A stretch of DNA of 38,604 nt from Verrucomicrobiaceae bacterium (GTDB lineage Bacteria; Verrucomicrobiota; Verrucomicrobiia; Verrucomicrobiales; V1-33), in NCBI GenBank assembly GCA_027483175.1, contig JAIXVE010000107.1, positions 1 through 38,604 on the forward strand, written 5' to 3'. Every line of letters begins with the position of its first letter. The stretch's first letter is position 1. Below, one piece after another: positions 8,965 through 38,604 of the stretch. A program made the position numbers and the translations under genes. The notes below the pieces were generated by a model. It did not search any database and was not told where the DNA came from. It was given only the letters and a program-made list of their open reading frames with translations.

Positions 8965-9005
8965 CGAAAAAAAAGGTCAGCGCAAGTCAGGTTCCAAAGT
9001 TCGCT

Positions 9006-9218
9006 TCACGAAAGCACCTCTCGCTTGAACAGCAGCAGCACCTCCACAGTGCGCCCCGTCGTGTTGCTCGTCTCCAGCGTCGACACCAGCTCCCAGCCAA
9101 GCGACCCCAACCGGTTCAGCTCCGCGGCAATCTCATCCGTATCCACCCGGCCGCCTCCCCACCAGCCGATCGCCCCGCTGACCCCCGGCGTGATTACCTT
9201 GTACTCCCACCGCTTCAT
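9006..9218 (-). CDS. DUF4177-like small protein in the suf operon
   Basis: A 70-residue protein with the usual layout of DUF4177 proteins: '[12 protein letters not shown]' at the start, 'ELNRLGSLGWELVSTLE' in the middle and a final strand 'VEVLLLFKREV'. The function of the family is unknown. The start ATG overlaps the sufB stop (TGATG), so translation is coupled to sufB, and sufD follows 41 bp later. Its place between two obligate partners suggests it is co-produced with the scaffold, but nothing in the sequence (no Cys cluster, no ligand motif) shows a role in Fe-S assembly. Confidence 0.85.
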   Translation of the reverse strand: MKRWEYKVITPGVSGAIGWWGGGRVDTDEIAAELNRLGSLGWELVSTLETSNTTGRTVEVLLLFKREVLS

Positions 9219-10651: not shown

Positions 10652-10683
10652 TTCTTTAATTTGGTCAGTGGTTGTTTCCGCGT

Positions 10684-11427
10684 TCAGGCCGCCTTCAGCA
10701 GCCAGTCATAACCTTTCTCTTCCAGCTCCAGCGCCAGCTCCGGCCCCCCCGTCCGGATGATCCGCCCGTCCGCCAGCACATGCACCACATCCGGCCGGAT
10801 GTAATCAAGGAGCCGCTGATAGTGCGTGATCACCAGCACCCCAAGCTCAGGCCCGCGCATCGCATTCACCCCGTCCGCCACAATCTTCAGCGCATCAATG
10901 TCCAGCCCGGAATCCGTCTCGTCCAGAATCGCATACTTCGGCTCCAGCATCGCCATCTGCAGAATCTCATTCCGCTTCTTCTCCCCGCCCGAAAACCCCT
11001 CGTTCACACTCCGCGCCGTAAACGACCGGTCCATCTTCAGCATGTCCATCTTCTGATAGAGATGCTGATAGAACTTAACCGCATCAATCTGCTCCCCCTT
11101 CGGCAGCCGCGCCTGCAGCGCCGCACGCAGAAAATTCGCATTGCTCACCCCCGGGATTTCCACCGGATACTGAAACGCCAGAAACAACCCCTCGCGGCTC
11201 CGCTCATCAATCCCCATCTCCAGCAGATTCCGACCATCCATCAGCGCCTCGCCCCCGGTCACCTGGTAATCCTCATGCCCGGCCAGCACCTTGCTCAGCG
11301 TGCTCTTCCCGGAGCCATTCGGCCCCATGATCGCATGCACTTCGCCCTTCGGCACCTCAAGGCTCAGCCCTTTGAGAATTTCACGGTCGCCGATCGTGGC
11401 GTGCAGATTCTTGATTTCGAGTTTCAT
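10684..11427 (-). CDS. sufC: Fe-S assembly ATPase SufC
   Basis: An ABC-type ATPase of about 247 residues that powers the SufBC2D complex. All nucleotide-binding motifs are visible: Walker A '[10 protein letters not shown]', ABC signature '[10 protein letters not shown]', Walker B '[12 protein letters not shown]' and the switch His in '[11 protein letters not shown]'. I chose the ATG giving '[20 protein letters not shown]', which matches SufC N-termini. The ORF track begins six codons earlier at a TTG, and an ATG two codons before mine is also possible. It starts about 20 bp after the Fur-family gene stop and precedes sufB by 32 bp, so all are probably one transcript. Confidence 0.96.
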
Positions 11428-11448
11428 GATCATCAGAAAATTCAACGT

Positions 11449-17986: not shown

Positions 17987-20900
17987 TTAAAGCTGCCGGA
18001 TGCGGAACATCGAATTGATCGGCGGTGGCGTCGACGTGACGAACTTCACATCGCCAACCCGGTCCGCCGTCGCCGTGCCGAGCACATTGAAGTTCACCCC
18101 GTCCGTCGTCTGCTGGATCGAGTAGGTCCGCCGCGCAATCCCGCTGAAGCTCACGCTCACATTCCCGTCCGGCAGCTTCGTCACCCTCGGCGCGTTCTTC
18201 GGATTCAGCCCCGGATCCGTCGCCACCACCACCGTCACCTGCCCGGTAATGATGCGGAATCCGTCACTGAACCTCACCTCAAAGGTATCCGTTCCTGCCA
18301 GCGGCACCGGCTGCGTGAAGACAAGAGACTTCTCCACTCGGGCGATGGCCGCTCCTTTGGCACTGAGGAGGGGAAATGAGGTGAGATTCACCGGGTCCCC
18401 GTCGGGATCCGTCACCTGCTGGAGCAGTTTATCCAATAGGAGAGTCGCCGGCTTGCCCTCCACGGTTTCGATAGTCAGCGGAGTGTAAACCGGCGCGCTG
18501 TTGGGCAACACTTGACCGGTGACCGGGAAGGTGAAGGTTCCCAGCACCGGATCATTGGAAGCGATGCCCACCGTGCCGCCGAAGGTGCCGATGGCATTGG
18601 CCGTCAGTTGGATTTGAATTTCCCCAGTGCCGCCTGCGGGAATGTTGGCGTTCAGGAACGCGACCCGGTAGCCGGGCGGCACGGAGACATTGCTGATAGT
18701 TAGGGGTGCAGTGCCGGTGTTCCTGACGAAGAAGATAATGGTCTTCGGGGAAGTGACCCGGGTAACCCCGTATTCCACCGGCTGCGCCTGACCGCTCGTC
18801 ACCGCCGGGAATCCCGGAGCGCTGGATCGCTGCACCGCGATGGCGGGCTGCTGGTCATTCGAGCCGATGAGCTTCAGGAGGACGAAATCCTGACTGTTCG
18901 CACCGGGACCGCCGGCGTGCCCGGCCACGTAGAGGTCTCCGGCGGCATCGACGATCACCTTGTAGGCGCTGGCCCCGGGACCGACGGGAATCATCACCCG
19001 TCCAGCGGTGCCGAAGGTGGAGTCCGGCAGGCCATTGGGCAAATAGCGCAGCACCGCGATCTCATCACCCGCCCGCCCGGCGACCACCACTCTGCCGTCC
19101 GCCTGCACAGCCACGCTGTTCGCCTGCTCTTTGTTGACTCCCGCAACGAGGTCCGTCAGCACAGCCCCGGTGGCCGCGAAGGTCACGTCGGGATCCAAAG
19201 TTCCTGACATTTGCCCGGCAATGAATCCGTGGCCGGTATCACGATCCAGCCCGGCCGTGCGGCGGGCCGCGAAAACAGGTTTTCCGGCGGTTTGCAAGGC
19301 CAGCGCCGACACGGTTTCGAACTCCGGCGCGGCACCCTCTGCCGGGTAGTCGGCAGGAGCGATCCCCGGGAAGGTGCCCACGTCCAACTGCACCCCACCG
19401 GAACTGGTTCTCCAGACACTGAGGCGACCCGTGGTGGTGGCCCGCCCGCCGATGAAGATTTCACCGGCCGCATTCTGTACCAGACACTGCCCGGCACCGG
19501 GACCGGGCAGCCGCAGCAGCCCGGCGGGCGAAGCAAATCCGGTGTCCAAGCTGCCGTTTTGATTGAACCGGCGGATATAGGCCCGGGTTCCCAGGATTTC
19601 CTGCAGACTGCCCGCCACCAGAATCTTGCCGCTCGCCGTGACCGCCACATCGCCAGTGGTGAACGCCGCCGCTGCCGACCCGTCCAGCGCTACCCCACCA
19701 GTGCCAAACGTGGCGTCCGGGGCACCGTCCGGCAGCAGCCGCATCAGCGCGAAGGTCCGGTCCGGACCGCTGAGGAACTCTGGCGGGCATGCTGCCGCGA
19801 GAATGCGACCGTCCTGCACGGCCAACCCGGTGATCGAAACGCCCGCCGCCGGGAACCCGGCCACGGTGCCCGTCGCCCAGCCGCTGTCGCCGAAGGATGG
19901 ATCGACCGAGCCGTCGGGCCGCAGACACAGAACCGCGTAGTCCGTGAGGACGCCGCTGGTCGTCCGACCCGCGAGCACGAAGCGCCCGTCCTCCAGTTGT
20001 GTCATCGCATAGGCCCGGTCATCGGAATCGTTGAAATCCGCCCGCACCACGCCGCCGGTGCCAAAGCGCAGGTCCAGCGACCCCGGCGTCATGTTCTGCA
20101 CGCCGCCCGTCACCGGAAACACAAACTCGGGATTCGCGGAATCGTTGGTGCTCACCGTCACCGGCCCGCTGAAGGTGCCCGGAGCCTCCGCCGTGAGGTG
20201 CAGGAAAAACGTGGCTGATTCCTGCGGTGCCAGCGGATCCGCCGGGACCGCCACCACCGCATAGCCTGGAGGAGCGGTGATGCCCGTCACCGTCAGCGGC
20301 AGGGCCCGCACGTTCTGAATGGTGAACGCCCGCGTCACTTGCTGCCCCGGCAGCGTGATCCCGAAATCCACCGCCGCTGCCTGCCCGTCCGCCAGCTTCG
20401 GACTGCCCGTGTCCGGTCCGTCATGCACGAAGACCTCCGGCGGGGTGATTTCAAAGATGTAGGCCGCACCCGAGTCGGTGGCGTTATTGTTGCTGCCATC
20501 GCCATTGATGCCCGTGGCGTTGCTGTCTTCAAAACGCGCACCGGCCACCAGCACCCCGCCGTCCAACGCTACAGCGAAACCAAATTGATCGAAGGCCTCG
20601 GTGTTGCTTGCCTTCAGAACCGCTTGTTGCACCCAGGCACCACCTGAGTGTTCGAAGAGATAGGCGGCTCCGGAATCCGGAGCACCTTGGTCCGGGCCAT
20701 TACCGTTGATTCCGAAGGAAGCGCTGCCTTCTACGCGGGCCGCCACAAGCACGCGGTTTCCGGAAACAGCCACCGAGCCCCCAAACAGATCTCCCCCGGA
20801 TGGACTGGACGCTTTCAGGTAAGCTTCCTGAACCCAGCTTCCGGTGTCGCGGCGGAACACGTAGGCCGCTCCACTGAGGGTCGCTTTCCCCAGATTCTGC

Positions 20901-23900
20901 GGCCCGTTGACGCCGGACGCTCCGCCGTCCTCACGCTCGGCTCCCACTACCAGCAAATCGCCCGAGAGCGCAACCCTTGCCCCAAACTCATCGCGCAGGC
21001 CGGGATTGGAAGCCTTGAGATATGCGCTTTGATTCCAAACACCACCGACCCGCTCGAATAAATACACGGCACCCGCGTTTTCCAACAAATTGTTGTTCTG
21101 GCTGCCGCCAACTCCAGCGCTGGCCCCATCCTCCCTATATGCCCCCACTGCCAGAGTGTTCCCGGATAGCGCGACTGCGACCCCGAAGCGATCCCCCCGG
21201 TCCGTGTTCGATGCTTTCACGTAGGCCGACAGTGTCCAGCTGCCGCCACTCCGCTCGAAAATATAGGCAGACCCTGAATCCGGGGCTGCATTCGACGCGC
21301 TGTCACCGCCAACACCGGTAGCATCGGAGTCCTCCAAGTCCGCGCCTACCACAACCGTGTCCCCCGAGATGGCCACTGCTCCTCCAAAACGGTCCTCCAC
21401 ATCGAGACGCGGTGGAGTGAGCAGCGCCTGCAAAGCCCAAGTGGTGCCCGTTCGCTGAAAGACGGCCACTGGCGCGTTGAGCACATTGCCCACCACCACG
21501 GTGTCGCCGGAGATGGCAACAGCGCTGCCAAAGTCACGCCCGGTCTGTATGCCCGGCGGAGTCCGCAATACGGCCTGAGGACTCCACTCACCGGAGCCGC
21601 TGTCTTTGACAAAGACATGAACTTCCTCGCGCAGGGACAGATTCGTTTGGCCACTCAATGGGGCACTTACCACCACGGTATTTCCACTCACCGCCACTGC
21701 CCGGCCCAAGTTGGAGCCGATTCTGGCCACGTCCGCCTTCGCATACGCCGTTTGTGCTATCATAAGCGGTGTCATGCCTGTGCCGGTCAGGGGGACACTG
21801 AAGGGGTTTTCGTCGGAATCGGTGCTGGCGATGCTCAGGGTGGCGTGGTAGGCGCGCAGGGCATCAGGTTGGAACTTCACGCGCAAGGCGCTGCCGTCAC
21901 CCGCGGCCAGCGAGGAGGCAAAGCCCTGGGTGTCCAGCACGAAGAAGGCTGCATCCGGGCCGGTGATGGTGGCGGCGATGGAGCCGAGGCTGGTGAGCGT
22001 GCCGACGTTTTCCACAATGAAGCTCCGTGCCGGGAAACTCACGCCAATAGGCTGGGCGCCAAAGTCCAGCGGGGCTCCATCCACCAGTTCCGTGTCCAGC
22101 GGATGCTGCACGGAGATTTCCGCGCCGATGCCACGGCCAGTGATCGTGAACGACCGGTCGGGCGCGTTGTCGCTCTCGAAGACGATTCTGGAACTGCGAT
22201 TCCCCAAGGCCTGCGGGATGAAGCCGACCTCTACGGCCACAGATTCGCCAGGTGCCAAGTCGTCATCGGTGACGAGCGCTGTGCTGGCGGCGCTGGCATC
22301 GTTGTTGGGAGCGATGGGATTGCGGATGCCGACGTTAAAAACATGGCCAGGGCCGGGATTCCGCAGGGTCACCGTGCGGGTCGCGGTGGTGCCCAGTGCG
22401 AGATCTCCGACATTGAGGGACGTGATGATGGTGCCTTGCGAGTTTTGCACAACCAGCCTGCCCTCATTCGCATTCACCGTAATGGTTACATCCTCCTCAA
22501 TGCCCTCGCCCAGATGCTCGGCGCGGAGGCGGACGGCGAGGCTCCGGGTGGCGGAGCGCAGCAGCGGGCGCGCGGTGACGAGCTGGTTGCCGGTCACGGA
22601 CAGCGCATCATTCGGCGTGGCGCTGACGATGGAGAAGGTGGCCGTGGCCTCCGGATCAGCGGGATTGATGACCGTGCCCAGGTTCGCGATCACAGTTCCG
22701 GCGGGCACATTTTCGAGTACGGCGGTGCCGCTCAGCGTGATGTCGGTCACAGCCACATCACCCACGGTGATGGCGAGATCCTGCTCGAAGCTCTCCCCAT
22801 TCGCATCCGTGGCCTTCACGCGAATGCTGCGGGTCGGAGCGTCCTCAAAATCGAGCGCGGTGGCGGCGGTTTTCACGGTGGTGCCGTCGAGGGTGAAGCG
22901 CGCATTGTCCGCCGCACCCGCCAACAATTCCCAGGTGCTGATGGCCGTGCCTGCCGGGACTATGGTGGTGACGGAGAGATCACCCACCGGGGCGTTGGCC
23001 TTGCCTTCGAGGATGGATGAGGTCGAAAGCGCGAGAGCGGTCGGGCCTTCGTCCGTTACGGAGACCGCTAAGGTCTGCGATGCCGATTCACCGCCCAGGT
23101 TGGTCGCTTTGACGAGCACATTGAACGGCCCGGGAGCGGTCTCGAAGTCGAAGTTGGCTTTGTTGGTGACGAGGTTCGAGTCGCTCACGGTAAAGGCCAG
23201 GGGCGCGGTGGTGCTGCCATCCACGGACACGACGGTGAAGGTGACGGGATCACCGCCGCCCGGCGGGTTGGTGGCGCTGAGCGCTCCGATCACATGGCCC
23301 GCCTGCTTGTTTTCCGGAAAGGTGTTGCTGGAAAGCGCCAGCGCTGTGGGATTCGGCACGTCCTGCACCTGGATGGTGAAGGTCTGCTCCAGGAAGCCGC
23401 CACCGTTGTTGGTGACGCGGAGCCGCACGCTGTAGGAAGTTTTGGTTTCGAAATCGAGGCCTGCCTTGGCCTGAAGTTGGTTGCCGGCGATTTGGAACTG
23501 ACCATTTCCCGTGTCCCCCGCGCCCGCCACGAGTGTGAAAGTAAACGTAGCCGCCGCATTCGGATCGGTGGCGCTGAGCAGGCCCACCACGGTGCCGAGT
23601 GGGGCGTTCTCCACGATCTGGTTGTCACCCAGCGTCAGACTGGTGGGGGTGGTCCGGAAGTCGGAGAGGATGACCTTGTCTGCGTTGAAGGCTTTAGGCT
23701 CGATGGCGGTGGTGTCGCCGTAGTTCACCTTGAAGGTTGCTTTGCCGTCTGCCGAAGCAATCCGTGCCCCATTGGGCGCGTTGGCGAAGCTGCCATTGAT
23801 CCTCGCCCCTGAGCCATCCACCACGGTGAAGGTATCACCAGCGGCCGGAAGGTAGCTCCCGGGCAGGTTCACCTCCAGGGTTACGCCGCCCACGTTAAAA

Positions 23901-26869
23901 ACTGCCGAGCCGCCCTCTAAGAGCTGGTCATGCTGTATGCCCGGCGTGGTGCCGCTGATGTCGAATCTGAATTTGCTATTCGTATTGAGGAGTATGAGAT
24001 CGCCGGTGATGGCCAGCGTGCCAGTGGTGGTGCCGATGCCAGGCTCAAAGGTGACTCCATTGGTGGTAGAGACCGAGACCGCTCCTGTGATCGTGCCGCT
24101 GCCCTGTATCTTGCCGCCCCGGATGGCAAAGGTGCCACCGCTCACACTGCCGCCATTGAGCACCAGTGCCCCGGCGGTCTGGGTGTAGGACGTGTTAAAA
24201 CGGATCGTGCCGCTGTTCGCGTTGACGGTGCCGCTGTTGTTGAAGTCTACTGAATAGACGTTTCCGATGATGGTTTCACCTGTGCCGCCGCTCTTGGTGA
24301 ATATGCCTTCGTTGTTGAAGGTTGCCGTGCTGTTGTAGGTGGCATTGGTGATGTTGCCATTGAAGGTGGTGATGAACTCCGAATCACTCCGATTGTTGAT
24401 CACGTTGCTATTGGTGTTTCCCCGGAATCCGATTTCTCCCCCCGTCCAATTGGCCGTCATCGTTGGGCCCACGCCATCGCCCAAGTTTAGCACGCGGCCA
24501 TAAGCGATCTCTCTGTTATCACCGTCAAAGGTCACACCACCTTTGGCGTTCACACTGCCCACTCCGTTGATTTTGCCATTACAGAAGAAAGGGCCGTTGA
24601 TGTCCAGCGGGCCACCATCAAGCGTGCCGGTGAACGTGAGAGTGGTATCCAATGTCGTCGCCCCACTGGCGGTGATGGCACCCGCGAACACTGTGGTGCC
24701 CGCACCGGTGAAAGTGGTGCCCGCGTTGAGGTTCATGGTGCCTAGGATGAGCGCTGCACCGCTGGCGATGACGAAGTCCCCTGTATTGGTGCCAGAACTG
24801 CCGACTCCTGTGGCGATGACCAGATTTCCGGAGTTTACCTGGATCAGGCCGCTGTTGCTGAAAACAAACGGATTGCTGTTGCCGCCAAGGGTGGTCGTGC
24901 CGGTTCCGTTCTGGTTGAAGGTGCCTTCATTGTTGAAGGCGACGGCGGCTCCGTTGAAATTGCTGTACATGGAGTTGTCCGCTGTGGCGTTGATGACCGA
25001 GTCACTCCGGTTATTGATCGTGGAGCTGGTTCCCATGACGATGTTGCCGCTCGACCATGTGGTCGTCGAGCCTGCATCGGGACCCGCGCCGTCGCCGAGA
25101 TTCAACACCGCGCCTTCGATGATCTGTCTTCCGTCCCCGTTGAATGTCACATCACCTGTGGCCGTGACGTTGGCAGATCCAGTGAGCACGCCCGTCAAGG
25201 TGAGGTTGCCATTTGCAGTCAAAGGGCCCGGGCCCGTCAGCATGCCGGTGATGTTCAGGCTTGAGTCCACCGTGGTTGCCGCGGCGGCGTCGATGACTCC
25301 GGAGAACAACAGGGTTCCGGCTCCCGTGTAGGTGGCACCGGCGGCCAGGGTTCGGGTCCCCGAGAATCCGCTTCGGAAATCGAGCGTGGCACCGTTGGCG
25401 ATCTGGAAAGCGCCCGAAAGGGTTCCGCCCGTGCTCTCCAGGGCGAGGGTTCCGGAATTCACCTGCACGGTGCCGCTGTTGTTGAATGAGAACGTGGATG
25501 AGCCGTTATTGACACCGCCGATGATGGCGGTTCCTGCGCCGCCATTCTTGGTGAAGGTCCCCTCGTTGTTGAAAACCATCGAGCCACCGCGGTTGATGTT
25601 GCCGAAGCTTCCGCCGTCGAAGCCGACGATGAAGTTCGAGTCACTCTTGTTATTGATCACCAGGCCGCTGTGGACCAGTGGATCGCCCGAACTCCATGTG
25701 GTGTTCACCACAGGGCCGGAGCCGTCCCCAAGATTGATGGTGCGCCCGGCCATTTCAAGGGGTCCGAATGCCGCGCCGCCGAGGGCATTGATGGCTCCCG
25801 AGCCATTCACCATGCCTCCGCCCAGCGTCAAAACATCGTTGGCCGTGAGATCGAAGCCTCCGCCGGTATTGGTGCCGCCGTTCATGGTGAACTTCTGGAT
25901 GGCGATGGCCTGGTCCACCGTCAGCGCGCCGCCGCTCTGCACGGCGTCATAGGTGGAGGCACTGTTGTTGGGAAAGGTGCCGGGCGCGGTTGGGGTGGAC
26001 CATTTGGTGGGGTCGCTCCAGTTCCCCGTGGTGCTGTTCCAGGCGGAGGTGTGGTGCGTTGGGACCGTGACCGTGGCGGGAGCGAGGAACTCCGCTGGCG
26101 TCAACGCGGCGGAAGTTAAGCGAAACTCGTCGATATAGCCGTCGAAGTTCCTTCGGTAGGAGGATCCGGGGCCGAGGAAGTTCCCTGCACCGATGTAGAG
26201 CGGTTGATCACCGTAGAAGAGATTGGGCCACACGCCCTGGGTGATGGAATCCAGCACGCCGTCCACATAGAAGCGGAGCTGATCCGTGGAGCCGGACACA
26301 TCACGATCCATGACCAGCGCGATATGATGCCACTTCCCGTCATTCACCAAGGCAGGACCGCCAAATCCCACACCAGCCCCTCCCCCAAAGCTGATAGAGC
26401 CTCCAACATTTCCGGAGAGACCGTAATCAAACTCAAACCCACCCAGGAAGCTGCCACCCTCTGCAGTGTTGAGCTTGACAGCAAACGTTGAGAAGCCAGG
26501 GCTGCCGTAGTCATCGTAGGGCGCGTCAACCTTGATGAACATCTCCACCGTGAAGTCACCCTGCTGGTGCAGCAGGGCGTTGTTGGGGATCTGCGCGAAG
26601 TTCATATCCCCGAGCGCATCGAGAGAGAAGTTCCCCGTGGCTGGAAGGGACGCACGGTCAGTGCTGTAGCTTAGTGTTCCTGCCGAGGTGCCGTGAAGCA
26701 GGTTGGGGCCGCTGTCCAAAATCGTGCCGACGGCCCCCGGACCATCTTCGAACCGGTAATGGGCGACCACATTTGACGGAGCCTGGGCAACCGCTATGCT
26801 TGCACCTGAGAAAAACGCGGCAAGGGTGCAAGAAAGGATAGCTGTTAGCCGGGACGGTTTGATCCTCAT
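17987..26869 (-). CDS. Giant secreted multi-domain protein (LamG, beta-helix, cadherin, FG-GAP, delta-60)
   Basis: A protein of about 2960 residues. I start at ATG 26869, giving the signal peptide 'MRIKPSRLTAILSCTLAAFF'; an ATG at 26932 is also possible, and the ORF track's 27040 start is a TTG. Domain order, read from sequence: a LamG-like jelly roll; a long autotransporter-passenger-like beta-helix; four cadherin-like repeats; an abnormal-spindle/choice-of-anchor-D-like region; seven FG-GAP-like repeats; a second anchor-D-like block; delta-60-type repeats; a third anchor-D block; an Ig/cadherin-like domain; and a C-terminal 'YSIQQTTDGVNFN' segment. No outer-membrane beta-barrel or PEP-CTERM tail is visible, so the export and anchoring route is unclear. 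It probably acts as a surface adhesin or matrix protein. Confidence 0.9.
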   Translation of the reverse strand: MRIKPSRLTAILSCTLAAFFSGASIAVAQAPSNVVAHYRFEDGPGAVGTILDSGPNLLHGTSAGTLSYSTDRASLPATGNFSLDALGDMNFAQIPNNALLHQQGDFTVEMFIKVDAPYDDYGSPGFSTFAVKLNTAEGGSFLGGFEFDYGLSGNVGGSISFGGGAGVGFGGPALVNDGKWHHIALVMDRDVSGSTDQLRFYVDGVLDSITQGVWPNLFYGDQPLYIGAGNFLGPGSSYRRNFDGYIDEFRLTSAALTPAEFLAPATVTVPTHHTSAWNSTTGNWSDPTKWSTPTAPGTFPNNSASTYDAVQSGGALTVDQAIAIQKFTMNGGTNTGGGFDLTANDVLTLGGGMVNGSGAINALGGAAFGPLEMAGRTINLGDGSGPVVNTTWSSGDPLVHSGLVINNKSDSNFIVGFDGGSFGNINRGGSMVFNNEGTFTKNGGAGTAIIGGVNNGSSTFSFNNSGTVQVNSGTLALESTGGTLSGAFQIANGATLDFRSGFSGTRTLAAGATYTGAGTLLFSGVIDAAAATTVDSSLNITGMLTGPGPLTANGNLTLTGVLTGSANVTATGDVTFNGDGRQIIEGAVLNLGDGAGPDAGSTTTWSSGNIVMGTSSTINNRSDSVINATADNSMYSNFNGAAVAFNNEGTFNQNGTGTTTLGGNSNPFVFSNSGLIQVNSGNLVIATGVGSSGTNTGDFVIASGAALILGTMNLNAGTTFTGAGTTVFAGAITASGATTLDTTLTFTGTLDGGPLDINGPFFCNGKINGVGSVNAKGGVTFDGDNREIAYGRVLNLGDGVGPTMTANWTGGEIGFRGNTNSNVINNRSDSEFITTFNGNITNATYNSTATFNNEGIFTKSGGTGETIIGNVYSVDFNNSGTVNANSGTIRFNTSYTQTAGALVLNGGSVSGGTFAIRGGKIQGSGTITGAVSVSTTNGVTFEPGIGTTTGTLAITGDLILLNTNSKFRFDISGTTPGIQHDQLLEGGSAVFNVGGVTLEVNLPGSYLPAAGDTFTVVDGSGARINGSFANAPNGARIASADGKATFKVNYGDTTAIEPKAFNADKVILSDFRTTPTSLTLGDNQIVENAPLGTVVGLLSATDPNAAATFTFTLVAGAGDTGNGQFQIAGNQLQAKAGLDFETKTSYSVRLRVTNNGGGFLEQTFTIQVQDVPNPTALALSSNTFPENKQAGHVIGALSATNPPGGGDPVTFTVVSVDGSTTAPLAFTVSDSNLVTNKANFDFETAPGPFNVLVKATNLGGESASQTLAVSVTDEGPTALALSTSSILEGKANAPVGDLSVTTIVPAGTAISTWELLAGAADNARFTLDGTTVKTAATALDFEDAPTRSIRVKATDANGESFEQDLAITVGDVAVTDITLSGTAVLENVPAGTVIANLGTVINPADPEATATFSIVSATPNDALSVTGNQLVTARPLLRSATRSLAVRLRAEHLGEGIEEDVTITVNANEGRLVVQNSQGTIITSLNVGDLALGTTATRTVTLRNPGPGHVFNVGIRNPIAPNNDASAASTALVTDDDLAPGESVAVEVGFIPQALGNRSSRIVFESDNAPDRSFTITGRGIGAEISVQHPLDTELVDGAPLDFGAQPIGVSFPARSFIVENVGTLTSLGSIAATITGPDAAFFVLDTQGFASSLAAGDGSALRVKFQPDALRAYHATLSIASTDSDENPFSVPLTGTGMTPLMIAQTAYAKADVARIGSNLGRAVAVSGNTVVVSAPLSGQTNLSLREEVHVFVKDSGSGEWSPQAVLRTPPGIQTGRDFGSAVAISGDTVVVGNVLNAPVAVFQRTGTTWALQALLTPPRLDVEDRFGGAVAISGDTVVVGADLEDSDATGVGGDSASNAAPDSGSAYIFERSGGSWTLSAYVKASNTDRGDRFGVAVALSGNTLAVGAYREDGASAGVGGSQNNNLLENAGAVYLFERVGGVWNQSAYLKASNPGLRDEFGARVALSGDLLVVGAEREDGGASGVNGPQNLGKATLSGAAYVFRRDTGSWVQEAYLKASSPSGGDLFGGSVAVSGNRVLVAARVEGSASFGINGNGPDQGAPDSGAAYLFEHSGGAWVQQAVLKASNTEAFDQFGFAVALDGGVLVAGARFEDSNATGINGDGSNNNATDSGAAYIFEITPPEVFVHDGPDTGSPKLADGQAAAVDFGITLPGQQVTRAFTIQNVRALPLTVTGITAPPGYAVVAVPADPLAPQESATFFLHLTAEAPGTFSGPVTVSTNDSANPEFVFPVTGGVQNMTPGSLDLRFGTGGVVRADFNDSDDRAYAMTQLEDGRFVLAGRTTSGVLTDYAVLCLRPDGSVDPSFGDSGWATGTVAGFPAAGVSITGLAVQDGRILAAACPPEFLSGPDRTFALMRLLPDGAPDATFGTGGVALDGSAAAAFTTGDVAVTASGKILVAGSLQEILGTRAYIRRFNQNGSLDTGFASPAGLLRLPGPGAGQCLVQNAAGEIFIGGRATTTGRLSVWRTSSGGVQLDVGTFPGIAPADYPAEGAAPEFETVSALALQTAGKPVFAARRTAGLDRDTGHGFIAGQMSGTLDPDVTFAATGAVLTDLVAGVNKEQANSVAVQADGRVVVAGRAGDEIAVLRYLPNGLPDSTFGTAGRVMIPVGPGASAYKVIVDAAGDLYVAGHAGGPGANSQDFVLLKLIGSNDQQPAIAVQRSSAPGFPAVTSGQAQPVEYGVTRVTSPKTIIFFVRNTGTAPLTISNVSVPPGYRVAFLNANIPAGGTGEIQIQLTANAIGTFGGTVGIASNDPVLGTFTFPVTGQVLPNSAPVYTPLTIETVEGKPATLLLDKLLQQVTDPDGDPVNLTSFPLLSAKGAAIARVEKSLVFTQPVPLAGTDTFEVRFSDGFRIITGQVTVVVATDPGLNPKNAPRVTKLPDGNVSVSFSGIARRTYSIQQTTDGVNFNVLGTATADRVGDVKFVTSTPPPINSMFRIRQL
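18840..20080 (-). repeat. Delta-60-type repeats within the giant protein
   Basis: Units such as 'LDLRFGTGGVVRADFNDSDD', 'VDPSFGDSGWATG', 'PDATFGTGGVALDG' and 'PDSTFGTAGRVMIPVG' recur at about 60 residues, each with a following 'DGRILVAG..'-like strand. They probably fold as a beta-propeller. Confidence 0.7.
20450..21770 (-). repeat. Seven FG-GAP-like repeats within the giant protein
   Basis: Seven units carry the pattern 'FG.AVA(I/L)SG.T(V/L).VGA', for example 'DRFGVAVALSGNTLAVGAYR', spaced about 65-75 residues apart and joined by 'YIFER..G.W..SAYLKAS'. Seven blades suit a closed integrin-alpha-like propeller. Confidence 0.8.
22480..23640 (-). repeat. Four cadherin-like repeats within the giant protein
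   Basis: Four units of about 95 residues each begin with a pattern such as 'LGDNQIVENAPLGTVVGLLS' and end with a 'DFET...VRLRVTN..G' strand, typical of bacterial cadherin-like, calcium-associated domains. Confidence 0.75.
24000..26090 (-). repeat. Beta-helix passenger-like region within the giant protein
   Basis: Gly/Asn/Thr-rich sequence with three similar long units, each with 'NN(K/R)SDS' followed by 'FNNEGTF' and 'SGTVQVNSGTL'. It ends in 'GSGTITGAVSVSTTNG', the usual close of autotransporter passengers. Confidence 0.75.
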
Positions 26870-27131
26870 GACGGGAGGGGGGGCGGGGAGGCGGAGAGAC
26901 TCGGAAAGGCGGGAGAGAGGTTCCGGATTCATGATGGAATGGCTGGATGGCGAGGTGGGTGTCGCTCTTTCCTTTCCCTTCCGTGCCGCCAGGTTGCGCC
27001 GAATCTGAAAATAAATCTCCGGGGCGCGGAAGGCAGCCAAGCGCGCGGCTTCCCCGGGGTGGAATTTCCCGCCAGGGGATTCCTCGCTGGTGACGGTGCC
27101 GGGCCGCCGCCGTCCTATCCCATCGGGAGGT
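26870..27131. other. Upstream region of the giant protein gene
   Basis: This spacer lies between the kinase stop codon and the giant protein's chosen start. It should hold that gene's ribosome binding site and perhaps a promoter, but I see no clear Shine-Dalgarno sequence. If the ATG at 26932 is the true start, the spacer is shorter. Confidence 0.35.
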
Positions 27132-30100
27132 TCACTCCTCCCAGCCGAGGCCCAGCTTTTTCAGTTCGGTCAGGAGGGCGTCGAGATTCCACTCGTAGAG
27201 GCGGTGGTTGCCATTGAGGAGGAACAGACGGCGGCTGTCGGCGCTGAAGGTCACCGCTTTGATGTCACGGCAGCGCGGGGTATACAATTCGATGAGCTTC
27301 CGCCCGTCCGGAATGCTCCGGATAGCGAGACGGTCGGTGTGTTCCTCGACAGCGGCGAGCCGGGAGTCCGGGCTGATGGCGGCGTGGCCAAAGTCGTTGC
27401 CGGACACGACGCAGACACTTTGCCACCGCTGCTTCCAGTCCGTCGTGGACAGCAGGCGGAAATTTCTCCGGGAGCGGGTGAGCATCCATTCTTCGTCCTG
27501 ACTGAAGAGGGCTTTGCCGGCCCATTCGCCAAAATCGAGGTGCTGCAGTCGCTTCCCGGAGGTGCCGTCATAGACCGGCAATACTTTCCAGGACAGGGTG
27601 CTGCCACTGAAGCGCAGGCCCGCGCTCCATTCCCCGCGACGGTCCCATGGGGGAAACAGAATGACCATGCGCTGTGGCCCGGCAGAATCCCCTTCCCAGA
27701 GCGAAGTCAGGCCCGCGCTCTGACGCAAAATGGAGCGGGTACCACGAGCATCCATCTGCTGGATCATCCAGTTCCCGGTGCCCGGGACCAGCACCGGCCC
27801 GCCCAGTTGCAGCGTCTGGTCCTTCCAGGTCAGACTGCGGCGATAAATGCCATCGCCCTTACGCTGGGAGGCGAAAAGGTTGGCACTGTCCGGCGCAAAG
27901 ACCGCCGTGACCTCCTTGCTGGCGGGATCGAATGGCCACTCCGCAGCCTCGCGCTGGAGCCGGGTGTCCCACAGCAGCACGCGGTTGTTCAGGCAGGTGG
28001 CGAGAAGCCGGCCATCCCGGCTGACCTCGATCTTTCCCCCGGGCCGCGCGGTGAGATCACGCGTGGTGAGGAACTCCCGGAACACCGCATCGGGCTGGAA
28101 CTCCCGCCGGTTCATAAAGGCATCCGTGCGGCTGATCATGAGGGCCTTCCCGTCCGGGGTGCTGCGCAGCGGCCCCGGACCGCCCGTGATCTGCTGGATC
28201 AGCTCCCCGTCGCGCATGTCCCACAGGCTGGTGATGCCGTCGTTGTTGACGCTCACCGCCGTCCAGGTGCCGGGCAGGGAGTCGATCCTGAGGCATGCGC
28301 CGCCGCTGGCGCGGAAGGTGGCGGCGACCCGATTGTCCCGGATCACGGAAACCTCCGGCGACCGGTCCCGGGCCGCCAGCAGGCCCATCCAACTCCAGTG
28401 CATCGGACGCCTGACTCCCGGCAGGTCGATATGGCTGAGTTGCCGGCCATCGCTGATTTTCCAGAATTCCACCCCATCCGCAGTGGCGAGGGCCAGCCTG
28501 TCCGAGAGTGGGGACCATGTCAGCCCGCGCAATTCCGTCGTTAGGGTCGTGACGGTGCTCTCCCGATCCTCCGTGAACCAGCGGACTTTCAATTCCTTCC
28601 GATCATTGAGCCATGCCACTGCCGGCTCTTTGGGCGAGAGGGCAAAGGGACGCCAATGGGTGGACGGCGCCGCATCCAGCTCCCCGACCCGCCGTTTTTC
28701 CACGGTGTCCCAAATCTCCACCGCCCCGCCATTCACCAGGACCGCCCAGCGACCGGAATCCGATATCTCCATTTGGAGCAGCGAAGGGCCGTCCATGTCG
28801 AGAGACCAAAGCTCGTTGGTCTCCGGTATCGTGCGCAAACTGAGCCGGCGCTTCTGGCCCGTGCGGTCGAGATTCCGGTAGAAGAAGAGGCGGGAGAGGT
28901 CCGCCGTGACGAGCGAGACCTGCCCGAAACTACGGATTTCCTTCCAAGCCATGCGGGAACCCACCTGCCGCAGCTCCGGAAGCGTCAGGACGGAAGCGGC
29001 CACGCTGGCTGCCCGCACCGAGGGAGCCTGCCGCGCCGATTCCTCAAGGAGTGGAAGGAGCACCTCGCGGCGGTTCACGTTGGCCTCCCCGAGCCGCGCC
29101 GCCGCCTGCTCCGCCAGCGCAGTGGCCAGACCTTCACGCAGTTTCAGATTTTTCGCCTCCATGTCGGCGTTAAGGCTGGCGAGCATGAAATTCCGCCAGA
29201 CCACGATGCCGATCACGCCGACGGTGAGCAGCAGCAACGCGGCCCATGCGGGATGCCGTCGCAGCCAGCGCCACACTTGCTCCCGCAACGGCTGCCGGCG
29301 GGCCAGGATCGCATCGCCCCGGAGCCAGCGGCGCAGATCATCCGCCAGTGCTCCGGCGCTGACGTAGCGGCGGGCGGGCAGCTTTTGCAGGGCCCGGCTG
29401 GTGATGATCGCCAGATCGCGCGGCACTTCCCTCGGCAGCGCGCCCGGTGCTTCTTCACTCAATTGCCGCAGCACCGTCGCCAGATTATCCCCGTGGAAGG
29501 GCGGATGTCCGGCCAGCAGTTCGTACAGCATGATCCCTAACGACCAGACATCGCTCGCGGTGCTTGCCGCGTCCTTGCCGCCGCGGGTCAGTTCCGGTGC
29601 CATGTAATTAGGCGTCCCCATCAGAGCCAGGGTCCGCGTCAGGTCGGACTCGCTCCCGAGAAGTTTGGCCAGTCCGAAGTCGCTCACGAACGGCTGCCCG
29701 CTTTCATCGAAGAGGATATTGCCCGGTTTCAAATCGCGATGCAGCACCCCGCGGGTGTGCGCAAACTGCACCGCCTCCGCCACCGTGGCGAGGAGTTCCG
29801 CAATGACCCGCCACTTTCCCCCGTAAGCCGCGATGCGTGCCGCAAGGGTGCCGCCCGTGGCCAGCTTCATGGAAAAAAACGGGGTGCCGTCCTCTTCGCC
29901 GGATTCATACACGGGAAGGATGCCGGGATGCTCCAGCCGCGCCATGGCCTCCGCCTCAAGCCGGAACCGCTGCCGCGCCTCCGGCGAATGCAGTTCCCCT
30001 CCCGGCAGAGCCTTGAGCGCCACCTCCCTCGACGGGTCTTTCTGTTGAGCCCGGTAAACCACTCCCATGCCGCCGCGGGCCAGCAATTCCAACAGTTCAT

Positions 30101-30263
30101 ACTCCCCCAGCCGGCCGATCCCGCCGTCGGGCGGTTCCGGCCCGAGCGCCCCCAGCAGCAGGCAGGCCGGGCACTCGCGTCCGGAAGCCCCATCCATAGC
30201 ACTGCCGCAACCGCTGCAGTGCGGGGACAGCGCGCCGGGATCCTCGTTTTCAGTTTCCGCCAT
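27132..30263 (-). CDS. Membrane Ser/Thr protein kinase with N-terminal zinc ribbon and propeller-like C-terminus
   Basis: A 1043-residue Hanks-type kinase. Residues 16-34 hold two CxxC pairs (CSGC and CPAC), a likely zinc ribbon. The kinase domain (~54-315) has the glycine loop 'LLARGGMGVVYRA', Lys84 in 'VALKAL', 'VLHRDLKPGNILF', 'SDFGLAK' and 'APE', so it should be active. A membrane segment (~339-356, WAALLLLTVGVIGIVVW) follows. The remaining ~680 residues carry WD40-like strands ('DSRRLFLLNGNHRLYEWNLD'), probably an extracytoplasmic propeller. It begins 2 bp after the ECF sigma gene stop; such sigma-kinase pairs are common in Verrucomicrobiota and Planctomycetota, where the kinase probably controls the sigma factor. 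Targets are unknown. Confidence 0.95.
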   Translation of the reverse strand: MAETENEDPGALSPHCSGCGSAMDGASGRECPACLLLGALGPEPPDGGIGRLGEYELLELLARGGMGVVYRAQQKDPSREVALKALPGGELHSPEARQRFRLEAEAMARLEHPGILPVYESGEEDGTPFFSMKLATGGTLAARIAAYGGKWRVIAELLATVAEAVQFAHTRGVLHRDLKPGNILFDESGQPFVSDFGLAKLLGSESDLTRTLALMGTPNYMAPELTRGGKDAASTASDVWSLGIMLYELLAGHPPFHGDNLATVLRQLSEEAPGALPREVPRDLAIITSRALQKLPARRYVSAGALADDLRRWLRGDAILARRQPLREQVWRWLRRHPAWAALLLLTVGVIGIVVWRNFMLASLNADMEAKNLKLREGLATALAEQAAARLGEANVNRREVLLPLLEESARQAPSVRAASVAASVLTLPELRQVGSRMAWKEIRSFGQVSLVTADLSRLFFYRNLDRTGQKRRLSLRTIPETNELWSLDMDGPSLLQMEISDSGRWAVLVNGGAVEIWDTVEKRRVGELDAAPSTHWRPFALSPKEPAVAWLNDRKELKVRWFTEDRESTVTTLTTELRGLTWSPLSDRLALATADGVEFWKISDGRQLSHIDLPGVRRPMHWSWMGLLAARDRSPEVSVIRDNRVAATFRASGGACLRIDSLPGTWTAVSVNNDGITSLWDMRDGELIQQITGGPGPLRSTPDGKALMISRTDAFMNRREFQPDAVFREFLTTRDLTARPGGKIEVSRDGRLLATCLNNRVLLWDTRLQREAAEWPFDPASKEVTAVFAPDSANLFASQRKGDGIYRRSLTWKDQTLQLGGPVLVPGTGNWMIQQMDARGTRSILRQSAGLTSLWEGDSAGPQRMVILFPPWDRRGEWSAGLRFSGSTLSWKVLPVYDGTSGKRLQHLDFGEWAGKALFSQDEEWMLTRSRRNFRLLSTTDWKQRWQSVCVVSGNDFGHAAISPDSRLAAVEEHTDRLAIRSIPDGRKLIELYTPRCRDIKAVTFSADSRRLFLLNGNHRLYEWNLDALLTELKKLGLGWEE

Positions 30264-30265
30264 AC

Positions 30266-31009
30266 TTATCCGTTCCCGTTTGGCGGACCGGAGTTGCCCG
30301 GCTCTGAATGATTGATCAGCAGTTTGGCCAGATAGCGAAGTTCCTCATCCACTTCATGCGGGGCGGAGACGGTGACCGAAACTGCCTGCCGCAACAATTC
30401 CCGGAACCGCTGCCGCAACCGGTGGATGGCCGCCTTCAGCGCCGAAAGGCTCAGGCCGAGTGATGCCGCCGCTTCCTCATAGGCAGGCGGAACCCCGGTG
30501 CCCGGCAGGTAAAACCGCAGCAATTCGAATTCGCGTTGCTGGTCTCTGGCCAAGAATTCCGCCTGCACCGCCTTCAGCGTGGAGTCCACCAGCGACAATG
30601 CCCATTCACGGTCGAACAGGCTGTCGGATGTCGATTGATCATCCATCATCTCCGGGCTGCTGTCATCGAAATCCTCCAGACTCAGCGGCGCGACGCCCCT
30701 GCCCCGTTTCAGAGCCTGCTGGCTCCGCAGGTGATGGTCCATCACGTGCCGAAGCGTGCCGAGGAGGAAATTGCGGAAACGGCCCTTCAGCCGGTCCGCC
30801 CGTTTCCATAAGCGGGATTCCACCAGCTTCAGAAGAAAGGCCTGGGTCAGGTCTTCAGCGTCCTCAAGGGGCAGGCCGCTGGCCTTGAGAAAAGCAAGCA
30901 CCGGCCTTCGGTAGGCATGACAGAGGTTCGCCAGCGCCTCCCGCCCAGCGGTGTCGCCATTCAACGTGGCATCCGCCAACAGGGTCCATCGGGTGGTGGG
31001 AAATGACAT
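30266..31009 (-). CDS. ECF-type RNA polymerase sigma factor paired with a Ser/Thr kinase
   Basis: A 247-residue sigma factor that directs RNA polymerase to its own promoter set. It begins 'MSFPTTRWTLLADATLNGDT', a start typical of kinase-linked ECF factors. Region 2 is seen in 'RRPVLAFLKASGLPLEDAED' and 'LTQAFLLKLVESRLWK', with 'RFRNFLLGTLRHVMDHH'. Region 4 is in 'YEEAAASLGLSLSALKAAIH' followed by 'RLRQRFRELL'. A C-terminal extension of about 35 residues follows. There is no anti-sigma gene; the next gene, 2 bp on (TAAGTATG), is the Ser/Thr kinase, so phosphorylation is the likely control (inference from the known ECF-kinase group). Confidence 0.93.
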   Translation of the reverse strand: MSFPTTRWTLLADATLNGDTAGREALANLCHAYRRPVLAFLKASGLPLEDAEDLTQAFLLKLVESRLWKRADRLKGRFRNFLLGTLRHVMDHHLRSQQALKRGRGVAPLSLEDFDDSSPEMMDDQSTSDSLFDREWALSLVDSTLKAVQAEFLARDQQREFELLRFYLPGTGVPPAYEEAAASLGLSLSALKAAIHRLRQRFRELLRQAVSVTVSAPHEVDEELRYLAKLLINHSEPGNSGPPNGNG

Positions 31010-35255: not shown

Positions 35256-36626
35256 TCAGGGACCGATCAGGCGCCGGGCATCCTCTGACTGCGTCGCCAG
35301 CCAGTCGGCCGCCTCTTCCGGACGTTCTTCGCTCCATTCCCTGAACTGACGCTTCACGACTCCCGGCATTTGGGGCGCGGCTCCCGCGGCAAGGGCCGCC
35401 GTCAATCCCGCGGCAGGATCCGTCACCGCCAGCTTCATCGCTTGATTCAGCAATCCGGTGTCTTTCACCGACCCGGGCGGGAGAAGGGACATGGCCTTCC
35501 TGAGCATGGGTTCCGGAACGCCGAATGGGTCGCCGCTGTTCAGTAGGCTAGCCGTGAAGCTCAATTCCTGCCAGCGGCTGTGCGTCTCCATCAGAACGCC
35601 CAGCTTTGCGTCATTTCGAATGCTGACACACCCGGTAGCGGTCGCGATCACATACGCCGTACGATCCCGTTCTTCCCGTTCCGGAATCGATCGAAGCGCA
35701 GCGATCAAACCCTCCCGGTCGCGATCCCAAAGATCACCGAGTCGGCGCGCGATGGCCTGTCCACTCATCCCATCGTACCCGGAGGACAGCCCTATACCGA
35801 AGAATGGCTGATCGGTGCTCATGTCGAAAGCAGCCGCCCGACTGAGCGCCCCGCAAAGTCTCGCCGCAGCCACATAGTAACTGGCAGGCGGGGTAAGCGA
35901 ATGCAGGCGCTGAATGCCCCTGTTTCCGGCGACACGCGCCGCTTCAGCCTCCTTTCCGTCCGTTGATGAAACCGCCGCTGTAGCTTTGTTGACCTCAGCA
36001 ACAGCCCGGTCGAAGGCAGCTGCTGTCCTTGGATTGGCTGGTAGCCGCTGCTCGGCCTGACAAAAGGCCGCCGTATTGTTCCACGGCTCCGCCAGCGGCT
36101 TCCCTTCCAGCAAGGCCTCCTGAGGGCTCATCCCTGTGGCTGCCTGGAAACGCCGCACGGTTTCGTCCGGGCAGTGCCGACAGGCGAGACCGAGACCGGA
36201 AGGATACTTCGCAAGGATGAAATCGAGCGCTGCACCCGGAGCTTTGCGCAGCCAAACGTCGAGCAGAACCTGGAGCATTTCACTGCCGTGGGTCTCTCCG
36301 GAAAAGGCTAGTGCCGCCTCGCATTCACGGGCCAGTTCCTTCGTGCTCAGGCGTTCCACCGCAGCCATGACTCCAGCGACTTTGGAGGGTTCCGGCTCGC
36401 TGCTTTTGCTGGTGAAGAGGAATTCCTCCATCTGCACTGCCGCCGGGCTGTGCTTCTGGAACACCAACTCTCCGCCGGGAGCGGGAGTGACGACGGACAG
36501 CGCCCGCGCCGGCCGGGCCAGTGGAACCGGTGGCGTCGGCTCATGGTCATAGACTCCAGCCAGTCCTAGCACCACAGCGGTCGCGGCGGCAGAAAAGAGA
36601 AAAGGTGCCAGTCGGATCAGTTTCAT
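35256..36626 (-). CDS. Exported or anchored protein downstream of the membrane sigma factor
   Basis: A 456-residue protein with an N-terminal membrane or signal segment ('FLFSAAATAVVLGLAGVY', ~8-25), a Pro-rich linker, then mostly helical sequence with repeated 'P..A..(F/W)(I/L)' units such as 'RKAPGAALDFILAKYPSG' and 'DPAAGLTAALAAG'. No enzyme motif is seen. It starts 2 bp after the stop codon of the fused sigma factor, so the two are almost certainly co-translated. It may be a partner or anti-sigma-like regulator of that factor; this is inference from position only. Confidence 0.75.
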   Translation of the reverse strand: MKLIRLAPFLFSAAATAVVLGLAGVYDHEPTPPVPLARPARALSVVTPAPGGELVFQKHSPAAVQMEEFLFTSKSSEPEPSKVAGVMAAVERLSTKELARECEAALAFSGETHGSEMLQVLLDVWLRKAPGAALDFILAKYPSGLGLACRHCPDETVRRFQAATGMSPQEALLEGKPLAEPWNNTAAFCQAEQRLPANPRTAAAFDRAVAEVNKATAAVSSTDGKEAEAARVAGNRGIQRLHSLTPPASYYVAAARLCGALSRAAAFDMSTDQPFFGIGLSSGYDGMSGQAIARRLGDLWDRDREGLIAALRSIPEREERDRTAYVIATATGCVSIRNDAKLGVLMETHSRWQELSFTASLLNSGDPFGVPEPMLRKAMSLLPPGSVKDTGLLNQAMKLAVTDPAAGLTAALAAGAAPQMPGVVKRQFREWSEERPEEAADWLATQSEDARRLIGP

Positions 36627-36628
36627 GG

Positions 36629-38599
36629 TCAGGGTAATGCTCGCAGGGCCTCACGCAGCGGCTTGAAGACATCGTTTGCACTGCTTTCCAGAAACGACGC
36701 CACGCCAGCAGGGTCTGCGGTTTTCCACATGCGGAACCACGGCCCCACCCTCGACTCAGCCGGCGTCTTCACATATTCCTCGCGCTTCGCGTTGTCGGAA
36801 ATCAAGTCTCCCATGAATCGCCTGTTGAGGAGCTCAGCCACCTCCGCCGCCCCGTTCCTCACCAGATCGGGGTGAGCTTCCAGCCACGGCAGCCACGTGT
36901 CAGGATCTGTCAGCGACCAATTGCCGGCAATGCTGAGCATCTCGGGAGCCCCGGCGGGATGATCGTAAATCATGTCCGCGGCTTCCATGACTTCGTGGCG
37001 GGAGTTTGCAGAATTGAGCGCACGCCCCAGTGCCGGTGATCGCGCTGAAGGCGGCTGATCCAGCCCCCAGGTGAGGAGGCCGCGCCATGACTTCTTTGCC
37101 CATTCCGTGCAGAGGGCATCGCAGGTGCGCCTCAAGGCATCGCCGCGCAGGCACTCACTCAACGCCGTCGCACAGCGCAGAAAATCCTCCTCCGATTCAA
37201 CAAAACGAATGGCTGCCTCCGCCCACCAGCGGTGTTTCGCCCGCTGCAGACCTTCCAGACTTTCCTCCAAGTACTGCTCCCGGTTTGCCAGATCCACGAA
37301 CCCATCGGCATCCAGCCTGCCCAGCCAACCGGCGGCGCTTCGGGCAGCATCGTCGCCGGGATACTCACCATTGAGAATGCGCCGGCAGAGCGCATCACGC
37401 GGCCCCTGCGGCAGCGCACGCAGCCCTATGTGAAGATGGGAATTCGCCCGCTGCACGAACCAGGACGGAGCAGGCGGCAGCATCAGTTCGTAGAGCGCCT
37501 CCACGTTGTGCTGCGCGAGACTTTCCAGCCACGTGGCATAGAGAAACCGCCCGCGGTTTCCAGTCAGGGAGAAATTCTCCTCTTCCAGCAGCTCCAGCAA
37601 CCGCCGCAGTGCCTCCGGCTGGTCCGCGACAGCCACAGACTGGGCCAGCGCAAGCTGCCGGTAATGCGTTGCCGGCGGCGCATAATCCCCAGGCTCAGCA
37701 ATGCACAGCGCCACGAGCTGCTGCACGATTTCCTCAATGGCCGCCGCGGCAGGCCGGGACGGAAACATCCGCACAGAGGCTTTCGCGGGACGCCCCACGG
37801 CCCGGTTGGCCTGCCCCGCGGTGACATGGCTGGAAACACGCTGGAGTGACGGGGCACTGCACAGCAGCACCGCCCCCACACCGGCGACCATCGGTGCAGC
37901 CATTGCCGTCCATCTCCACACCCGCGCCGCCGTGCCGCCCACCATCGGGCGCACACTCTGCAGAATGGCCGAGGGAACCCCCGGAGCCGCGGCCTGCGCC
38001 GGATCGCGCAAAGCAGCCACGATCGCTGCCACGCTGAGCGCCCCCGCTGCTCCGCCACGACTCAACCGGGAGCGCATCCGCTCCAGCGCCCGACTCACCC
38101 GCTTCTGTGCCGCATCCTCCGAAATGCCCAGCACCGCACTGACCTCGCGCAGGCTTCGCCCTTCCAGATAGCGCAGCGTCACCACTTCCCGGTCCGCCCG
38201 CGGCAAGGCCGTCAGGCAGTCATCGAGGTCCGCCAGCAACTCCACCTGCGGACCCGACACCGGGCGTTCATGCAAATCGGCCGCCACCTGTTCCCGGGCC
38301 CGCCGACGGCGCTCCGCCTTCAGGTAGTCAGCCGCCGCCATGCAAGCCCGACGGTGCAGCCACCCGCCCAGCCGCTCATCCTCAGGCAACGACGGACCGC
38401 GCTTCGCCAGCGCCGCAAACACATTCTGCGCCACATCCTGCGCCGCCGCCGGCTCCCCCGTCTTCCGCAGCGCAGTGCTGTACACAAGCCCGGCATACCG
38501 CTGCACAATCCCCGCAAACGCACGCTCCGACCCGTTCCGCCGGTACGCTCCCAGCAGGACGGACACCGGCTCCACAGATTCACTCACAGGCGCACTCAT
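36629..38599 (-). CDS. ECF-type sigma factor fused to a transmembrane and large C-terminal domain
   Basis: A 656-residue protein from ATG 38599 (a GTG one codon upstream is possible). The 5' end is only 5 bp from the window edge. Sigma region 2 lies at ~26-98 ('PAAAQDVAQNVFAALAKRGP') and region 4 at ~124-180 ('LPRADREVVTLRYLEGRSLR', 'EVSAVLGISEDAAQKRVSRA'). A hydrophobic segment follows (~231-249, WTAMAAPMVAGVGAVLLC), then ~400 residues without known motif, probably outside the cytoplasm. This fusion type is seen in PVC and Acidobacterial genomes. How it is released from the membrane is unknown; the next gene, 2 bp on, is an exported protein. Confidence 0.88.
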   Translation of the reverse strand: MSAPVSESVEPVSVLLGAYRRNGSERAFAGIVQRYAGLVYSTALRKTGEPAAAQDVAQNVFAALAKRGPSLPEDERLGGWLHRRACMAAADYLKAERRRRAREQVAADLHERPVSGPQVELLADLDDCLTALPRADREVVTLRYLEGRSLREVSAVLGISEDAAQKRVSRALERMRSRLSRGGAAGALSVAAIVAALRDPAQAAAPGVPSAILQSVRPMVGGTAARVWRWTAMAAPMVAGVGAVLLCSAPSLQRVSSHVTAGQANRAVGRPAKASVRMFPSRPAAAAIEEIVQQLVALCIAEPGDYAPPATHYRQLALAQSVAVADQPEALRRLLELLEEENFSLTGNRGRFLYATWLESLAQHNVEALYELMLPPAPSWFVQRANSHLHIGLRALPQGPRDALCRRILNGEYPGDDAARSAAGWLGRLDADGFVDLANREQYLEESLEGLQRAKHRWWAEAAIRFVESEEDFLRCATALSECLRGDALRRTCDALCTEWAKKSWRGLLTWGLDQPPSARSPALGRALNSANSRHEVMEAADMIYDHPAGAPEMLSIAGNWSLTDPDTWLPWLEAHPDLVRNGAAEVAELLNRRFMGDLISDNAKREEYVKTPAESRVGPWFRMWKTADPAGVASFLESSANDVFKPLREALRALP

Positions 38600-38604
38600 C
38601 ACCC

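Follow-up and report, generated by a model that had tools for sequence, protein, structure and literature searches.

The window analysed here (the whole of contig C154, 38,604 nucleotides, from a 5.86 Mb Verrucomicrobiaceae genome assembled in 365 contigs) contains, at one end, two closely spaced reverse-strand genes (Table 1). The first encodes an ECF sigma factor fused, via a single predicted transmembrane (TM) segment, to a C-terminal part of some 405 amino acids; the second encodes a putative exported protein, whose reading frame begins 2 bp past the fusion stop codon. Both had been recognized in the initial annotation, as a membrane-tethered sigma factor with ~400 residues outside and an exported partner at 2 bp spacing. 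The open reading frames, Pfam and TIGR02937 matches, and hydropathy support this description, and place the partner translationally close to the fusion.

Table 1. Features of the sigma-TM fusion gene and its exported partner (window coordinates; res, residues).
Feature	Coordinates	Strand	Details
ECF sigma-TM-ectodomain fusion	36629..38602	-	657 aa from GTG; 656 aa from adjoining ATG codon at 38599
Sigma region 2, res 32-100	38303..38509	-	Pfam PF04542 Sigma70_r2, 1.9e-9; AF2 pLDDT about 94-98
Sigma region 4, res 125-176	38075..38230	-	PF08281 Sigma70_r4_2, 1.3e-13; contains recognition helix LGISEDAAQKR (QK class)
Linker from sigma region 4 to membrane, res 183-230	37913..38056	-	Loose conservation between fusions whose ectodomains are unrelated
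Single transmembrane segment, res ~231-250	37853..37912	-	Predicted from hydropathy
Predicted extracytoplasmic domain, res 256-657	36632..37837	-	Helical-repeat superfamily, most evident at res 463-587 (37216-36842)
Exported partner, 456 aa, ATG start	35256..36626	-	Distant member of the ectodomain's repeat superfamily, most evident at res 382-447 (35483-35286)

The sigma part of the fusion consists of regions 2 and 4 with no region 3, as is characteristic of ECF sigma factors, and matches TIGR02937 at 1e-21 (77.3 bits versus a cut-off of 42.9). An AF2 model of the sigma part and linker is good at residues 13–182 (pTM 0.47) and predicts helices at 191–205 within the ~50-residue linker (mean pLDDT 88 for residues 191–200); the docking of the linker was not read from this model. 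TM hydropathy peaks at 1.76 over 19 residues (value from the orthologue at locus L023). No Pfam or NCBIfam match was obtained for the C-terminal ~405 amino acids, nor any Pfam match above chance for the partner, which begins with a hydrophobic segment—a signal peptide or an anchor—in which no lipobox was seen. An AF2 model of the partner was discarded as too poor for use (pLDDT 48). Both genes recur in another genome of this genus, with 97–98% identity in the fusion and 92% in the partner, and the L023 orthologue of the fusion is 98% identical. Among named records, Verrucomicrobiaceae bacterium C1_MAG_00061 is nearest (98% identity in the fusion).

Sigma-TM fusions are not confined to this locus: five more are encoded in the same genome, and over 50 were gathered outside it, mostly from Verrucomicrobiota. 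A contig scan yielded 34 related loci, the majority being fusions and the majority coming from Verrucomicrobiota; about 20 additional loci were from other families and classes of that phylum. Across the fusions, the order sigma part, linker, TM is constant, and hydropathy puts the TM segment in the same position in nearly all, while the ectodomains are entirely different. Most linkers follow a loose pattern of [KR]RG[VI], an alanine-rich hydrophobic stretch and A-P, and recognition helix LGISEDAAQKR is near-invariant within one large fusion class. An exported partner is coupled within about 60 bp in ~27 of 58 fusions, often through an ATGA overlap. The remainder have no partner or an unrelated one: at L022 (7404–10114) the fusion overlaps the gene for an exported redoxin/thioredoxin-like protein, and at L051 (5920–7890) there is a 4 bp overlap with a type IV pilin-like protein gene. 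At L106 (1381–6587) the fusion is followed by an exported protein of 1079 residues that has beta-propeller and ankyrin hits, and then by an ectodomain homologue (137–1315).

The regions upstream of the fusions contain a promoter-like element, TGTCGGAT or its variant TGT[G/T]CGGTT, some 40 nt ahead of the start codon. Its core TGTCGG occurs within 110 bp upstream of 28 of 58 fusions versus 1 of 233 other genes of the same loci (Fisher 9e-22), a count that, like the p-value of the pairing given below, overstates independence because the pairing traces back to roughly two changes in the sigma phylogeny. In k-mer counts of the same 58 upstream regions, no 6-mer exceeds 17 after shuffling. In alignment, the sites have the form TGTCGGAT(T)T, followed ~18–22 nt further on by a GCGGGTGTA-like sequence; this −10 half is only loosely conserved. 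The distance from the start of the element to the ATG has a median of 41 nt, and many fusions without TGTCGG carry TGT[G/T]CGGTT in the same position. With the −35-like element just ~40 nt from the start codon (47 fusions), transcripts would be nearly leaderless. The two forms of the element pair with two forms of the sigma region 4 recognition helix: QK with TGTCGG (26:0), and RM with TGT[G/T]CG[G/C/A]TT (13:0). At locus L034, one sigma factor of each helix/promoter kind is found side by side.

The window stops 2 bp above the GTG codon of the fusion, and so its promoter can be read only via contig C222, which has an exact 119 bp overlap with the last bases of the window. On C222 the gene is preceded by TTTGTCGGCAAT...GGGTGTCTTAT, with TGTCGG 38 nt before the ATG—the form predicted by its QK helix class. 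A position weight matrix trained without the genus of the window scores this site at 12.2, a value reached at 2 of ~77,000 window positions. The element block is retained in the second congeneric genome, where identity begins right at the element and the DNA above is unrelated. In C222 (L017, 119–160), congeneric synteny ends a few bases above the element, as if promoter and operon were one cassette. The element resembles an ECF −35/−10 pair, and we infer that it is recognized by the window sigma factor. Given such an element ahead of the sigma gene, and the correspondence between the element's two versions and the two recognition-helix variants, the sigma factor is probably functional and autoregulated.

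As for the promoter targets that the initial annotation left to be found, a candidate now exists before the fusion's own operon; exact-pattern searches of the same genome gave no convincing further one. Across 13 genomes, covering its own and its family, there were 34 exact-pattern matches versus 7 for a reversed control; outside sigma-fusion operons nearly all lie within genes, and hence no wider regulon is claimed.

Relatives of the ectodomain and of the partner were sought in 289 genomes of the order. Both proteins weakly match exported repeat proteins of ~400–700 amino acids, some of them shared. When iterated, the partner profile reaches the fusion ectodomain at 5e-32 (residues 463–587) and the ectodomain profile reaches the partner at 4e-6 to 9e-8; profiles from each side also gather some 70 more database rows, of which almost all are sigma-TM fusions or proteins that are exported. 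Because iterated searches can drift, a control profile was built from ten free-standing family members alone, with the window proteins left out. With this profile, the ectodomain scores 28.1 bits and the partner 24.4, whereas none of 4,000 shuffled copies exceeds 9.0, and HMM-HMM comparison with the free-standing members gives probabilities of 85% and 80%, respectively. Direct comparison of the ectodomain with the partner shows no similarity (hhalign probability 0.2%), and the link runs via the family. With both proteins matching the family profile and the direct comparison blank, they are distant members of a single exported helical-repeat superfamily.

The free-standing relatives carry N-terminal export signals, which argues that the C-terminal part of the fusion also belongs outside. 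The initial annotation could have failed on two points—non-functional residues in region 2 or 4, and a cytoplasmic C-terminal part. Regions 2 and 4 are conserved and appear functional, with a recognition helix that pairs with the −35 element, and the ectodomain is homologous to exported proteins. TM hydropathy is moderate, as an inactive module or a cytoplasmic C-terminus would allow; nevertheless, either condition is made highly improbable by a recognition helix that hardly varies, its pairing with the promoter, the strong conservation and the exported ectodomain homologues.

In at least two ectodomain families unrelated to that of the window, operons also encode an exported homologue of their own sigma factor's ectodomain. 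Firstly, in family 2 (Verrucomicrobiaceae/Akkermansiaceae-type), the homologue is the third gene in 6 of 6 loci, after a second gene that is mostly lipoprotein-like; ectodomain and homologue match directly at E values of 9e-17 to 2e-24 (HMM-HMM, 6e-29). Secondly, in family 3 the homologue is the next gene, at L030 (3e-46), L034 (twice) and L035 (HMM-HMM, 4.6e-20). A further case is L151 (4e-38). Weaker cases are L149, L150, L154, L157 and L160, with homology at L149, L150, L157 and L160 being marginal (23–25 bits or less, partly coiled-coil biased). For the window-type repeat, an ectodomain homologue lies in the operon also at L024 and L106. A general reading of this recurrence is tentative, and to our minds holds somewhat less than an even chance: one-protein ECF receptors across the phylum, each regulated by a sigma-less copy of its own ectodomain. 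The ectodomain would have been duplicated repeatedly, in unrelated ectodomain families, to give a co-produced exported decoy or co-receptor, with periplasmic self-recognition in place of an anti-sigma factor, and an autoregulated promoter.

For the window itself, the account that we judge slightly better than even is a self-contained, membrane-anchored ECF sigma transducer with partner-shielded tethering, proteolytic release and self-activation. It would work as follows: (i) the sigma factor is kept at the inner membrane, with the ectodomain in the periplasm, (ii) ectodomain and partner assemble there into a complex that keeps the fusion uncut, (iii) an envelope signal alters or removes the partner, (iv) the fusion is cut by a periplasmic protease and then by an M50 site-2 protease, (v) the released sigma factor switches on its own operon, and (vi) levels of both sigma factor and partner rise, with fresh partner restoring the shielded state (i.e., positive and negative feedback). 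The domain layout, the family ties and the conserved element with its matching helix are seen in the sequence itself; that tethering is the off state, that release occurs by intramembrane proteolysis, and that the partner is regulatory are steps that we infer. A partner cannot be essential to the general mechanism, given that it is coupled in only ~27 of 58 fusions and is an ectodomain homologue in only some.

The partner might instead be an output: the sigma factor would mainly control its own operon, the exported repeat protein would be the delivered effector, and the likeness to the ectodomain would reflect binding of the same ligand. The position of the partner within an apparently autoregulated operon fits this, as do the lack of a convincing further target by exact patterns, the mostly free-standing, sigma-less occurrence of related repeat proteins, and the adjoining genes at L106 (beta-propeller/ankyrin protein) and L022 (redoxin). 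However, ectodomain homologues that recur across unrelated families argue for a functional tie to the ectodomain itself, and the regulon search used strict patterns only; we consider an output role unlikely.

ECF sigma factors normally depend on a separate anti-sigma protein. For the fusion, neither an anti-sigma gene nor an anti-sigma domain was found with Pfam/NCBIfam, and the earlier suggestion that the fusion may itself replace the anti-sigma factor is plausible, though not new, having precedents in IutY and ECF52. Membrane-spanning extensions are known in ECF sigma factors for which proteolysis has been shown (IutY) or is expected (ECF48/52/53) (PMC8999054, PMC5826349). IutY (ECF243) of Pseudomonas putida, a sigma/anti-sigma fusion, is activated by Prc/RseP proteolysis (PMC8999054; PMC5411451). 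Like IutY, the window protein is an ECF sigma factor fused C-terminally to a membrane-bound part, with no separate anti-sigma gene. In IutY, the C-terminal part serves as anti-sigma factor in iron cell-surface signalling, whereas Pfam/NCBIfam recognise no anti-sigma domain in the window protein, whose coupled gene encodes an exported repeat protein.

That IutY, a membrane-fused ECF sigma factor, requires proteolysis (PMC8999054) also bears on whether the window fusion is released at all. A tethered sigma factor could bind RNA polymerase at the membrane, the ectodomain merely shifting its conformation; the ~50-residue, partly helical (by prediction) linker between sigma region 4 and the membrane would accommodate this, and cleavage of the window fusion is itself a proposed step. 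Against it stand the IutY precedent and the M50 proteases, although these are near universal: two are encoded in this genome, and as all 14 of 14 control genomes have one, their presence permits release but hardly supports it. Signalling without release seems quite improbable, and we retain proteolytic release as part of the preferred transducer.

Other groups resemble the window protein in outline. ECF52 and ECF48/53 are like it in joining an ECF sigma factor through a TM segment to a long extension outside the cytoplasm, and positive autoregulation has been suggested for the ECF52 member SCO4117 of Streptomyces coelicolor (PMC5826349). ECF52 proteins, from Actinobacteria only, possess a zinc-finger domain, a proline-rich stretch and a carbohydrate-binding domain (PMC5826349); in contrast to ECF52/48/53, no zinc-finger anti-sigma domain (Pfam/NCBIfam), proline-rich stretch or carbohydrate-binding domain was found in the window protein. 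ECF57, exemplified in Singulisphaera of the related Planctomycetes, likewise has a large C-terminal extension, described as WD40-like repeats plus two conserved cysteines (PMC8999054), rather than the helical repeats of the window protein. Membership of ECF57 was rejected: the cysteine pair is not conserved, with at most 7 of 37 fusions having a cysteine in any column. Also rejected was TIGR02989 (Sig-70_gvs1, Rhodopirellula/Verrucomicrobium), at 56.3 bits below its curated cut-off of 124.55.

In the open-access literature we found no description of this fusion family, of an exported ectodomain homologue in the operon, or of the helix/promoter pairing in this phylum. Novelty is provisional, as coverage was of open-access literature and the separation from named ECF groups rests on domain matches and published descriptions. 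The arrangement matters in that transmembrane signalling would seemingly run within one polypeptide whose regulator, if we are right, would be related to the outer half of that same polypeptide; in this phylum, envelope signalling is as yet poorly understood. The promoter element and matching helix provide the basis for a reporter assay with two candidate specificities: QK/TGTCGGAT and RM/TGT[G/T]CGGTT.

The second sigma module that the initial annotation placed within 6 kb is indeed present, 4.2 kb from the partner gene. It occupies 27132–31009 on the reverse strand: an ECF-like sigma factor (31009–30266; 247 aa, with a weak Pfam match for region 4) lies 2 bp before a gene for a 1043-residue Ser/Thr kinase (30263–27132) with a WD40-like C-terminal part. 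Further along the same strand are an exported 3017-residue giant with, by eye, cadherin-like and FG-GAP-like repeats (17987–27040), and iron-sulfur cluster assembly genes, also identified by eye (sufC, sufB and sufD-like; 7666–11445).
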